The notes beneath the pieces are model-generated. The model was not told the origin of the DNA, made no database searches, and worked only from the letters and a program-made list of their open reading frames with translations. DNA of 64,000 nt from Candidatus Halobonum tyrrellensis G22 (lineage in GTDB: Archaea; Halobacteriota; Halobacteria; Halobacteriales; Haloferacaceae), in the NCBI RefSeq assembly GCF_000495475.1, contig NZ_ASGZ01000060.1, positions 62,001 to 126,000 on the forward strand. Direction: 5' to 3'. The stretch's first letter is position 1; each line of letters opens with the position of its first letter. The position numbers and the translations under genes were made by a program. Below, piece after piece: positions 57,169 through 61,504 of the stretch.

Positions 57169-58461
57169 TCAGTCGACGAAGAACTCGTCGTCCTCGAACG
57201 GTTCGTCCTCGCCTTCGACCGCGAGCACGTCGAGTTCGCTCACCGTCGCGCCGACGCCGAGCAGACCCGCGAGGCTGGGTTCCGTCCGGCCCTCGTCGCC
57301 GGATATCAGCTCCTTGATGTAGAGGCCGCCCTCGCCGTGGACCTCGACGGTGGCGTGGCGCGCGTCGACGAGTTCGCCCGACACCTCGTGTGCGACCCGG
57401 ATGCGGGTCTTGCCCGCCCGGCGGTGGTCGACGCGGTTCGGGGTGTACTGTTCGACCGTCGCGCCGTCGAGTTCCGTCAGCGCGTCGGCGAGTTCGTCCG
57501 CCTCGACGTCCGCGTCGAACGCGACGGCGGCGCGGTAGCGCTTGCTCGCGTCGAGCCGCTTCACCCGCTCGACCATCCCGTGGGTACAGCGGCGTAGCCC
57601 CTCGACTTCGACCTTCCCCTCGGCGAACGCGTTGACGTCCGCCTCCAACCGCCCGACGTCGATGTCGCGGCGGCGGGGCTCGTCCACCTCGACGACGAAC
57701 GGCCGGCCCGTGCCGAGCATCAGCGCGTCGACGTCCTCCCTGCCGGCGCCGTGGAAGGTGGAGTCGACGCCGTCCATCACGTCCTCGACGACCGGCGCGG
57801 TCAACTGCTCGACGCTCTCGGGGTAGAGGTAGCCCGTCCCCTCGCACGTCTCGCAGACGCCGCCGTCCGCGCGGCCGGTGCCGTGACAGTCCGAGCAGGG
57901 CCACTCCGTCTGGGGGATGTCCCGCTCCAGTTTGCGGTACCGGCCGTAGACGAACGCGGAGTTGACCGTCGTCTCCACCGTGTCCTCCGCGACGTCGAGG
58001 AGGAACTGCACGTCCGGGCGCTCGAACTCCACCTCCGCGCCCGTCAGCCGGCCGAACCGCTTGCCCACCTCGCGGTTGAACTCCTTGCGGAGCGGTTCGC
58101 CCGCGTCGGAGTCGAGTCCCGCGTCCGCGCGGAACAGGTCGCCGTTCTCCTCCAACAGCGGCGGGACGCGCGTGCCCACCTGGTAGCTGTCGAACTCGAC
58201 GCCTTCGACGGCGGCGGCGGCGCGGTCGGCCCAGTCGTCGAAGTCGGCGCAGACCCCCTCACACACCCAGCAGTCGGCGGTGTCGGCGGGTTGGAAGTCG
58301 GCGTCGTCCGCGAGCGCGACCGCGGTCCGGAGGCCGCGGCCCCGTTCGTCGTCGCCGAGGCCGAACGAGCGGTCGGCGAACGGGCGGCCGAGACAGTTGT
58401 CGCAGACCGGCCCGGTGGCGAGCAGGTCGCGGGCCGCCGCGAGGAGGCGAGCGTCGTCCAT
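57169..58461 (-). CDS. pus10: tRNA pseudouridine synthase Pus10
   Basis: It makes pseudouridine in the T-loop (position 54, and often 55) of archaeal tRNA. The 430-residue protein begins with a zinc-binding region (CDNC at residues 20-23, CWVC at 64-67), then a THUMP-like segment, and the catalytic GREDVDALMLGTGRPF near residue 240 with the essential Asp. Between them, residues 189-206 carry a second pair of Cys motifs, CSDC and CETC, each followed by a Gly-rich turn, which look like DnaJ-type zinc knuckles. The start at 58461 gives MDDARLLAAARDLL, the family N-terminus. Confidence 0.92.
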   Translation of the reverse strand: MDDARLLAAARDLLATGPVCDNCLGRPFADRSFGLGDDERGRGLRTAVALADDADFQPADTADCWVCEGVCADFDDWADRAAAAVEGVEFDSYQVGTRVPPLLEENGDLFRADAGLDSDAGEPLRKEFNREVGKRFGRLTGAEVEFERPDVQFLLDVAEDTVETTVNSAFVYGRYRKLERDIPQTEWPCSDCHGTGRADGGVCETCEGTGYLYPESVEQLTAPVVEDVMDGVDSTFHGAGREDVDALMLGTGRPFVVEVDEPRRRDIDVGRLEADVNAFAEGKVEVEGLRRCTHGMVERVKRLDASKRYRAAVAFDADVEADELADALTELDGATVEQYTPNRVDHRRAGKTRIRVAHEVSGELVDARHATVEVHGEGGLYIKELISGDEGRTEPSLAGLLGVGATVSELDVLAVEGEDEPFEDDEFFVD

Positions 58462-58723
58462 GCCGCCCCTCGTCGGGGCGCCCACTACCCTCTTTCGTTC
58501 GCCGGGTCCGACCCGCCGGCGTGTGCCGGCACCACCGCGGGGCGTACCGGCGGCCGGGCGGAACGTGGTCGGGACTGTCGACCACGGCGGCACGTCGACA
58601 CGTCCACGGTCGGTCGACGGGGCGGGCGGCGCGGAGGGGTCGGCCGTGTGGGTGTCCGGACGCGTCAGCGGGGTGGTCGGGGGTGGGTCGGCGGGCCGCG
58701 TCCGACGGCGTCCCGCGCCCCGG

Positions 58724-59062: not shown

Positions 59063-59674
59063 ACGCTCCCGGCGCGGGTCGAACGCGCCAGTCGGCCACT
59101 CCTCGCGCCGGGGCGCGAGTCGTTCCGGGGGAGTGGCCGCGTTCGCCGACGAGCGTGGGCGACACCGAACGGTAGGGGATGTAGAGAAGTCCGCCTCCGT
59201 TCGGGCGTACACCCGACGCGCGCCGGCTTACGCGGCGATGGAGGCGGACGGTACGTGGAGCCGAGTCCCCGTCTCCCCGTTCGCGTCGGCCGCTGCCGCC
59301 GCCGGGAAGGACCGCCACCCACCATAGCCGTCGCTGCCGAAGGCGGCAGACACGGCGATGAGTGCGGTGACGGGCATGGGTGACTCGTTCGACTCTCGTC
59401 GTACTCCACCGATGTCACCCGTCCAACTTAACGTTTCGCCAGCAGTGTCAACCGGTCACACGGCTGTGCGTTACCGGAATTTCTCGCCGGACCCCCGGCC
59501 TGCAGACGCCGACCGAAGGGCTTTCCGACCAAACCCGCTTGCTGAACTCACAATGCCGGAGTGTGTTACCTGTGGGATCACGAGTAGTGGGAGGTCGAAT
59601 CACGGCCGGCGTACGGTCGACGCCCGGCGGAACGGGCGGGACCACTCGGTCGCGTCAGGGAGCGCGGATTCCGA
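59063..59674. other. Long leader region of the TFB gene
   Basis: 612 bases divergent from the small conserved gene on the left, with TFB to the right. The last ~270 bases are clearly less GC-rich than the surroundings. CTTAACG at about 59428-59434 is the best TATA-like element for the plus strand and would leave a ~220-base leader before the TFB start. Within that leader lies a short frame with a CxxC motif (59553-59678). Confidence 0.5.
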
Positions 59675-59678
59675 GTGA
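59553..59678 (+). CDS. Possible small CxxC protein overlapping the TFB start
   Basis: A 41-residue frame from ATG 59553, starting MPECVTCGITSSGRSNHGRR and ending in SGSADSE. Its stop overlaps the TFB GTG (GTGA). MPEC-x-x-CG is the opening of small haloarchaeal zinc proteins that carry a second CxxC, but that second pair is missing here, so this could be a remnant or a leader peptide. Base composition is lower in GC than neighbouring genes. Confidence 0.3.
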   Translation: MPECVTCGITSSGRSNHGRRTVDARRNGRDHSVASGSADSE

Positions 59679-60625
59679 CGACGAGATACGGTCGCGAACG
59701 GGAGGACGAACGGAGCCCCGGCCCGGCGGCCGAGGAGGCCGACGAGGTCGACGAGGACGACCTGGTGCGGACGGAGGACGGCGAACTCATCGACGAGGAG
59801 TCCGGGCTGGTCGTCGAGGAGGACAACGTCGACCGGGGACCGGAGTGGCGCGCGTTCGACGCGACCGAGCGCGACGAGAAGAGCCGCGTCGGGTCGCCGA
59901 TGACCCAGACGATGCACGACAAGGGGCTGACCACGAGCATCGACTGGCGCAACCGCGACGCGGGCGGCAGCCAGCTCAGCGCCGAGAAGCGCTCGCAGGT
60001 CCAGCGGCTCCGAACCTGGCAGGAGCGCATCCGCACGCAGGACGCCGGCGAGCGCAACCTCCAACTCGCGCTCTCGGAGGTCGACCGGATGTCCTCGGCG
60101 CAGGGCGTCCCCAAGTCGGTCCGGGAGGTGGCGTCGGTCATCTACCGGCGCGCACTCTCGGAGGACCTCATCCGCGGCCGCTCCATCGAGGCGATGGCGA
60201 CGGCGTCGCTGTACGCCGCCTGCCGCCAGGAGGGGATCCCCCGCTCGCTCGACGACTTCGTCGGCGTCGCGCGGGTCGAGCGCCGCGAGATAGCGCGGGC
60301 GTACCGCTACATCTCGGGCGAGTTGAGCCTCGAACTCAGGCCGGTCGACCCCGCCGAGCACGTCCCGCGGTTCTGCTCGGAACTCGACCTCTCGGACGAC
60401 GTGGTGCGGCGCGCGAAGGCGATCGTCGAGGAGACGACCGCACAGGGGCTCCACGCGGGCAAGTCGCCCACCGGCTTCGCCGCGGCGGCGATCTACCTCG
60501 CGTCGATGCTGTCGAACGACAAGCGCACCCAGTCGGAGATCGCGGACGTCGCGGACGTGACCGTCGTGACGGTGCGCAACCGCTACAAGGAGCAGATGAA
60601 CGCACTCGACGTCGGCGACTTGTAG
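59675..60625 (+). CDS. Transcription initiation factor TFB lacking the zinc-ribbon cysteines
   Basis: A 316-residue TFB (TFIIB homologue), which bridges TBP-DNA and RNA polymerase. The linker DRGPEWRAFDATERDEKSRV and both cyclin repeats (LQLALSEVDRMSSAQGVPKS onward, and AKAIVEETTAQGLHAGKSPT onward) are intact, ending in a VTVRNRYKEQMN helix-turn-helix. In ordinary TFBs two CxxC pairs form an N-terminal zinc ribbon before GLVVEED. Here the region is DLVRTEDGELIDEESGLVVE, with Asp40 and Ser43 in the place of the second pair and no cysteine before residue 183. It starts at GTG 59675; no alternative start restores a ribbon. It probably still binds TBP-DNA, but contact with polymerase would differ (inference). 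Confidence 0.88.
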   Translation: MTTRYGREREDERSPGPAAEEADEVDEDDLVRTEDGELIDEESGLVVEEDNVDRGPEWRAFDATERDEKSRVGSPMTQTMHDKGLTTSIDWRNRDAGGSQLSAEKRSQVQRLRTWQERIRTQDAGERNLQLALSEVDRMSSAQGVPKSVREVASVIYRRALSEDLIRGRSIEAMATASLYAACRQEGIPRSLDDFVGVARVERREIARAYRYISGELSLELRPVDPAEHVPRFCSELDLSDDVVRRAKAIVEETTAQGLHAGKSPTGFAAAAIYLASMLSNDKRTQSEIADVADVTVVTVRNRYKEQMNALDVGDL

Positions 60626-60694: not shown

Positions 60695-61504
60695 GTGTTG
60701 ACGTTACGACGGTACATCGACCGGCTGAACGCCCCACCTCGGACGCTCGCGGTGTTAGAACGCGGGCCGGAGGAACCGACCCACCGGATGCTCGCGGGCC
60801 TGTTCGACGAGCAGGCGGTCGAGGTGGAGGTAGCGACGACCGACCTCCCGGACGCCGGGGGTGACGCCGTCGCACTCATCGAGGACGGCGATCTGGTGGC
60901 CTCCTCGCCGATGGCCGACCTCGAAGAGGCCATCCTGTTCGTCAACTCCGACCTGTACACGACCGGCACTCGAAAGCTCGCGGACGCCGACCTACCCGAG
61001 GTGCTCACCCGGCTGTCGGACGCGCGCTTCTCGCTGCGCGGCTACCCGCTGGCGCACAAGGAGAAGCTCCTCCTGATCGCGGTGTCGAGACAGATCGAAC
61101 TCCGGGCGTACCGCGCCGGGAGCGGCACGCTCCGATCGTCGTTCCAGCGGCTCTCGCGCATCGAGGACGAACAGGGCACCCGCCGCGTGTACGAGGCGCT
61201 CGGGTCGACGGACGTCGACGTCCACGTCTACGGCGAACCCGACGCGAACCCCGCGGCGAGCATGCCCGTCACCGTCCACGAGGGGTACGGCGACGGCTAC
61301 AGCGACTCGTGGTTCGTCGTCTTCCGCCCCGACGGGGCGAGCGGGGCCGACGCCGCGGGCGCGACGGACGCCGACGCGGAACGCGACGACGGGGGGGCGG
61401 CGCTGGTCGCACTGGAGACATCGCCGCGGGTGTGGGAGGGGTTCTGGACCTACCGGCCGGACCTGGTCGCCGACATCGACCGGACGATCCGCGAGTCGCT
61501 CTGA
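60695..61504 (+). CDS. DICT sensory domain protein
   Basis: A 269-residue protein with a DICT domain (a sensory domain linked to light and signalling proteins in bacteria and archaea). The features are LVASSPMADLEEAILFVNSD, YTTGTRKLADADLPEVLTRL, RGYPLAHKEKLLLIAVSRQI, ELRAYRAGSGTLRSSFQRLS and RRVYEALGSTDVDVHVYGEP, ending WEGFWTYRPDLVADIDRTI. It has no DNA-binding or output domain, so it must act through partners. It starts at GTG 60695. A TATA-like CTCTAAAG near 60671-60678 gives it its own promoter, but it lies only 69 bases after TFB. Confidence 0.85.
   Translation: MLTLRRYIDRLNAPPRTLAVLERGPEEPTHRMLAGLFDEQAVEVEVATTDLPDAGGDAVALIEDGDLVASSPMADLEEAILFVNSDLYTTGTRKLADADLPEVLTRLSDARFSLRGYPLAHKEKLLLIAVSRQIELRAYRAGSGTLRSSFQRLSRIEDEQGTRRVYEALGSTDVDVHVYGEPDANPAASMPVTVHEGYGDGYSDSWFVVFRPDGASGADAAGATDADAERDDGGAALVALETSPRVWEGFWTYRPDLVADIDRTIRESL

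Follow-up and report, generated by a model that had tools for sequence, protein, structure and literature searches.

Introduction

The B-ribbon and its zinc are treated as a fixed part of TFB and TFIIB and as the point at which polymerase docks. Paralogues missing part of the usual architecture occur, e.g. Sulfolobus TFB3, which is without the cyclin core but keeps its ribbon, and Pyrococcus TFB2, whose reader is altered; a cysteine-less ribbon in a full-length TFB is found in neither. The expansion of TFBs in haloarchaea, and the clades that it produced, have been described (PMC4230888, PMC2121645). With respect to TfbG of Halobacterium (VNG0254G), a member of the TfbC/G clade, a knockout was obtained in one study (PMC2121645), whereas in another, going by the account that PMC2121645 gives of it, the dispensable genes identified did not include tfbG.

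Two described systems are close to the case reported here. The TFE of Haloferax volcanii, likewise a basal initiation factor and from the same group of archaea, has lost metal ligands and kept its function: the degenerate ribbon of TFE-alpha still folds, and TFE-beta pairs without an Fe-S cluster (PMC5861453). Bacterial C-minus ribosomal proteins provide the second case, in which a cysteine-containing and a cysteine-less paralogue are encoded in one genome and the C-minus form is made under zinc limitation, replacing the zinc form (PMC5912738). No published description of a cysteine-less TFB was found in the literature searched, which took in few subscription papers.

A full-length TFB without ribbon cysteines

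The window, i.e. the whole stretch of 64,000 nucleotides of Candidatus Halobonum tyrrellensis G22 that was analyzed, contains a TFB gene with the following features and neighbors.

59675..60625, + strand: cysteine-less TFB (window-type), 316 residues, GTG start
59735..59830, + strand: zinc-ribbon equivalent without cysteines, residues 21–52, with AlphaFold2 strands at 30–32, 38–40, and 45–47
59792–59794 and 59801–59803, + strand: Asp40 and Ser43, in place of the second cysteine pair
59831..59986, + strand: reader and linker region, residues 53–104, where the window-type protein is most constrained
60053..60307, + strand: first cyclin (TFIIB) repeat (G000:C60:122053-122307)
60338..60601, + strand: second cyclin (TFIIB) repeat (G000:C60:122338-122601)
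57169..58593, − strand: Pus10-like tRNA pseudouridine synthase, a conserved divergent neighbor that marks the syntenic locus in Halobaculum
60695..61504, + strand: DICT-domain protein, downstream of the TFB on the same strand

The reader and linker boundaries are those that we assume from position relative to known TFIIB/TFB. The original prediction described a TFB in which the cyclin repeats and linker are well conserved and every ribbon cysteine is missing, and the profile searches bear this out: the protein matches the TFIIB repeat model PF00382 over two stretches (151.2 bits) and satisfies the NCBIfam TFB model NF001658 (400.8 against a cut-off of 384), but falls below the cut-off of the zinc-ribbon model PF08271 (21.5 against 29 bits). 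The N-terminal ribbon with two cysteine pairs by which TFB and TFIIB are recognized is absent, and no cysteine precedes residue 183. The segment ELIDEESGLVVEED is present, with Asp40 and Ser43 at the positions of the second pair, as had been predicted. GC3 of the ORF is 96%. The reader and linker motifs GPEWRAF...KSRVG...HDKGLTT...I.W are kept in the cysteine-less TFBs, and Foldseek matches the window model to TFB and TFIIB structures.

No cysteine is encoded in the in-frame extension upstream to the preceding stop (WEVESRPAYGRRPAERAGPLGRVRERGFR), and no upstream start restores a ribbon. Seven syntenic orthologues from other genomes (~81–83% protein identity) carry the same cysteine-less ORF; the loss is therefore not a sequencing error, and the upstream start or sequence correction that might have overturned the prediction is refuted. 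A CVTC occurs in another frame ~120 bp upstream of the TFB (59563–59574, in the frame of an ORF at 59358–59678). It was not found upstream of the two Halobaculum orthologues examined and is probably there by chance; its distance is too great for a ribbon. Downstream, the gene for the DICT sensory-domain protein (60695–61504) is retained at that place in most Halobaculum copies of the locus but was not found beside the copy in genome G106; its product is a possible functional partner of the window TFB.

A second cysteine-less TFB and loss of the ligands in place

Beyond the original prediction, the genome encodes a second cysteine-less TFB, and the trait proved typical of most of the family. 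Ten full-length TFBs were identified in this genome, plus one fragment on contig C10. Two of the ten are without any ribbon cysteine, i.e. the window gene and L001 on contig C4 (G000:C4:36607-37539, − strand; ribbon AEDLDPEEIDEEELRRTADGELIHEPTGLILEEDNVDRGPEWRAF), and CxxC pairs are present in the others, L016 included. Thus, as for the bacterial C-minus ribosomal proteins, cysteine-containing and cysteine-less paralogues coexist in one genome. The fragment (G000:C10:36194-36421) is TFB-like, with one partial repeat in a frame of 122 residues.

The C4 gene lies between those for RNase HI and NreA, adjoining DUF7108, a PadR-like regulator, and a pyrophosphatase. The same order (pyrophosphatase, RosR-like/PadR-like regulator, DUF7108, RNase HI, TFB, NreA) is found across Halobacteria. 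In Halobacterium salinarum RosR is VNG0258H and TfbG is VNG254G (VNG0254G; PMC3443676, PMC4287449), numbers in keeping with TfbG being the TFB of this RosR/RNase HI locus. In H. volcanii, where RosR is HVO_0730 and NreA is HVO_0734, synteny makes HVO_0733 the probable counterpart. L001 is the syntenic TfbG orthologue, sharing with it two cyclin repeats, reader, linker, and ~90% core identity. In contrast, the window gene is not between RNase HI and NreA; it is at another locus than TfbG, its core has diverged (about 67%), and it is likewise ~67% identical to the C4 copy. A CPEC...CEDC ribbon is present in TfbG and in the orthologues sampled beyond Haloferacaceae, from Natrialbaceae, Halobacteriaceae, and other outgroup families, whereas the cysteine-less group has none of the four cysteines. 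As the syntenic outgroup TFB is canonical, the ligands were lost in place in Haloferacaceae, in a protein otherwise ~90% identical. The RosR-like neighbor belongs to the ancestral locus and does not set the cysteine-less copies apart; no zinc gene was recognized in the neighborhoods read at either the TfbG or the window locus.

Distribution in Haloferacaceae

About 152 of the 170 GTDB Haloferacaceae genomes contain a strong match to a model of the cysteine-less N terminus (model A2, E below 1e-27), and all strong-match sequences that were read are cysteine-less. Carriers include Halorubrum, Haloferax, Halobellus, Halogeometricum, Halonotius, Halohasta, and Halobaculum, and intact ORFs occur in at least 20 genera. 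A degenerate DNA pattern of the cysteine-less turn matched exactly in 125 of the 170 genomes, with no match for the reversed control; the misses inspected have the same cysteine-less motif with other codons or small changes. Among 392 genomes of the order the pattern was confined to Haloferacaceae and three genomes of one f3 genus, whose sequence is similar to that of Halorarius (L128) and to the window type. Window-like cysteine-less TFBs (RTxNGELxDEETG) were observed in Halorarius (L128) and in a single genus that lies outside Haloferacaceae (three genomes, L284–L286), and may reflect transfer or an older origin.

Family genomes without a strong match mostly have no TFB in the stretch next to RNase HI. 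Several genera have lost the TfbG-locus gene (g47, most of g8, some Halorubrum), and this repeated loss implies that it is dispensable over evolution. In a Halonotius relative (G113, L261) the copy has an internal stop. In three Halonotius genomes (G112, G114, and G115), the sole TfbC/G-type TFB found is cysteine-less (L226, L241, L265, L270, L276). One genus of the family, represented by G208, still has CPEC...CEDC in its TfbG-locus TFB (L209, L242; G208:C2:837564-838520), which may reflect early branching, retention, late loss, or re-acquisition; the deep nodes of a flanking-gene tree built to place G208 are without support.

The window-type copy is syntenic beside Pus10 in 6 of 11 Halobaculum genomes at the threshold used, and in G106. 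Judged from its sequence and position, the window gene is a second, diverged cysteine-less paralogue, with one locus in Halobaculum and neighbors. A quick tree of the core only separates TfbG-type from window-type cysteine-less TFBs and groups the latter, with moderate support, with cysteine-less proteins of G106, G099, and Halorarius. The common ribbon motif argues for a single origin of both ribbon types; because the core has probably undergone gene conversion (below), the order of events between them cannot be given firmly.

TFE-alpha was compared in 27 genomes (L312–L338). It has one cysteine in two of them (G040 and G048) and three or four in the window genome and the other 24. A clade-wide loss of zinc ribbons from initiation factors was thus rejected, as TFE-alpha keeps three or four cysteines in most genomes with a cysteine-less TFB; its own loss, limited to a few genera, is a separate event from that in TFB. 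The TFE-alpha of the window genome (L331, G000:C35:31113-31352) has three cysteines, in the form CxxD...CxxC with one cysteine replaced by aspartate.

Constraint on the cysteine-less ribbon

None of 75 distinct cysteine-less ribbons compared has any cysteine. Four residues, D-27, R-21, T-20, and G-9, are invariant in all 75, and the first three of these are not conserved in canonical ribbons. The invariant arginine and threonine correspond to R32 and T33 of the window protein. Only the second pair can be aligned with certainty: its replacements are histidine (aspartate in the window protein) followed by threonine or serine, so that the fourth-ligand position is Ser/Thr in all members. At the first-pair positions a gapless alignment gives aspartate in 64 of the 75 and Asp/Glu/Asn in all, asparagine being rare, and histidine follows at the third position in 70. 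A residue-for-residue change of CPEC to DPED was considered and rejected, as the loop is not of constant length but differs by one residue.

Pooled Nei-Gojobori estimates for the ribbon (32 codons), which are descriptive since the pairs are non-independent, gave dN/dS values of 0.132 (Halorubrum), 0.050 (Halobellus-like), and 0.044 (Haloferax) for TfbG-type cysteine-less proteins and 0.196 for the window type, the least constrained of the groups; the canonical sibling and canonical Natrialbaceae orthologues gave 0.093 and 0.030. Reader and linker values are 0.026–0.079 across the cysteine-less groups (0.079 in the window type). Alignment with TFBs of the same and related genomes, proposed with the original prediction, therefore yields a clade with common cysteine loss and a ribbon under purifying selection (0.044–0.196), as expected for long-term retention rather than decay; relaxed selection across the clade, which would have spoken against it, is not seen in these pooled values. 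These observations indicate new constraint on the cysteine-less ribbon, not simple loss.

In AlphaFold2 models, based on shallow alignments and of low to moderate ribbon confidence for both proteins, the cysteine-less ribbon has strands at residues 30–32, 38–40, and 45–47 (pLDDT 59–69), and the canonical protein has equivalent strands (pLDDT 64–69).

Probable gene conversion of the TfbG-type core

The core of L001 is almost identical to that of a canonical TFB on contig C28 (L002). Third codon positions of the TfbG-type cysteine-less TFB and the most similar canonical TFB were compared in 12 genomes, over a core segment 50–100 codons after GPEW. Within-genome identity exceeded that to another genome's canonical TFB in all 12, and that to another genome's cysteine-less orthologue in 10, with two ties. 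For the window genome the values are 98% to its own canonical TFB versus 48% to the Halobaculum cysteine-less orthologue. Ribbon identity between TfbG-type cysteine-less and canonical paralogues is about 50–60%. Codon bias adds some within-genome similarity, as seen in a less affected core segment, but alone it would not reach third-position identities of 96–98%. The simplest reading is that the TfbG-type core has undergone repeated conversion with that of a canonical TFB, the ribbon apparently being kept apart. The window gene is not part of this exchange.

Function of the cysteine-less TFBs

The cysteine-less TFB is most likely an active initiation factor and not a decayed gene, and on balance the window gene probably belongs to a group of working TFBs with a zinc-free B-ribbon. 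This reading is favored because the ribbon is constrained and newly invariant, because constraint on the window-type protein is strongest in its reader and linker, because the TfbG-type core stays like that of a canonical TFB, and because the cysteine-less protein is the sole TfbC/G-type TFB in the three Halonotius genomes. Counting against it, ribbon mutations in other TFIIB and TFB proteins abolish polymerase recruitment, and the losses at the TfbG locus in several genera indicate a dispensable gene.

In such a factor the ribbon would still be a small three-stranded sheet, with salt bridges and high salt replacing zinc, and the TBP-DNA binding and reader/linker functions would operate as usual. 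The altered ribbon, acting with the reader, linker, and core, would recruit RNA polymerase, and this recruitment may be weaker or more selective than usual. The TfbG-type copy would act at the same promoters as its canonical sibling but be unaffected by zinc or by the oxidation of thiols; the window copy has a diverged core and probably its own promoter set.

The original prediction proposed instead that the protein may occupy promoters but not recruit polymerase in the normal way, and so could compete with other TFBs, a proposal that we favor less. An intact core would then bind TBP-promoter complexes and reduce or adjust the transcription that canonical TFBs drive from those promoters. TFIIB ribbon mutants elsewhere act in this way, the zinc ligands are absent, and the TfbG-type core is nearly identical to the canonical one, seemingly by conversion, so that both should bind the same promoters. 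However, constraint on the window-type protein is strongest in the reader and linker, which contact polymerase, and mere loss of docking would not require gained invariant residues and a strongly constrained ribbon. Moreover, the three Halonotius genomes have no canonical TfbC/G-type sibling to compete with, and the window-type core is diverged from any sibling. A pure competitor is thus less likely than an active initiation factor and has, in our view, a modest chance of being correct.

A more specific form of the active, zinc-free factor is a zinc-independent twin of a canonical TFB in most of the family, in which conversion would keep the core, which binds promoters and threads into polymerase, identical to that of the zinc form while selection keeps the ribbon zinc-free, so that the same genes could be started when zinc is scarce or thiols are oxidized. 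By analogy with the bacterial zinc-independent ribosomal proteins (PMC5912738), a zinc-sparing or oxidation-proof role is speculation, and we consider the twin arrangement tentative and rather unlikely.

Alternatively, the ribbon may have been re-liganded, the Asp, Asp/Glu, His, and Thr residues (acidic residues and serine in the window protein) binding zinc weakly or a hard metal ion. The frequencies of aspartate or Asp/Glu/Asn at the first pair and of histidine at the third position are compatible with this, as are the observations that His, Glu, and Asp can replace cysteine in zinc coordination and that H. volcanii TFE-alpha, which differs from the cysteine-less TFBs in retaining one cysteine, binds zinc, if weakly (PMC5861453). 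On the other hand, loops of unequal length leave the first-pair alignment ambiguous by one residue, histidine is missing from these positions in the window protein, the fourth position is Ser/Thr throughout, and such ligand sets are expected to be poor zinc binders; an alternative metal site is distinctly improbable.

It is very unlikely that the gene is relaxed and heading for loss, kept by chance or by conversion with a sibling. Losses at the TfbG locus recur, and the window type evolves faster than other TFBs and is present in just 6 of the 11 Halobaculum genomes, but ribbon dN/dS is low in a segment outside gene conversion, with pooled values already pointing well below 1, ORFs are intact in many genera, and synteny of the window copy is conserved in Halobaculum and G106. 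That a sequencing, frameshift, or start-site artefact accounts for the missing cysteines, as the out-of-frame CVTC might suggest, has a negligible probability given the cysteine-free upstream frame, the agreement of many independent genomes, and a segment that aligns without gaps to the second half of the ribbon.

Implications

The cysteine-less TFBs suggest that haloarchaea of this family can initiate transcription with a TFB that has dispensed with zinc, a metal that the factor has been taken to require. Their retention in most genera of the family, including the genetically tractable Haloferax, makes the need for zinc in polymerase docking directly testable, and likewise a possible division of labor between zinc-bearing and zinc-free partners that share a core. 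They further suggest that gene conversion can act on one region of a general transcription factor and leave another region distinct.
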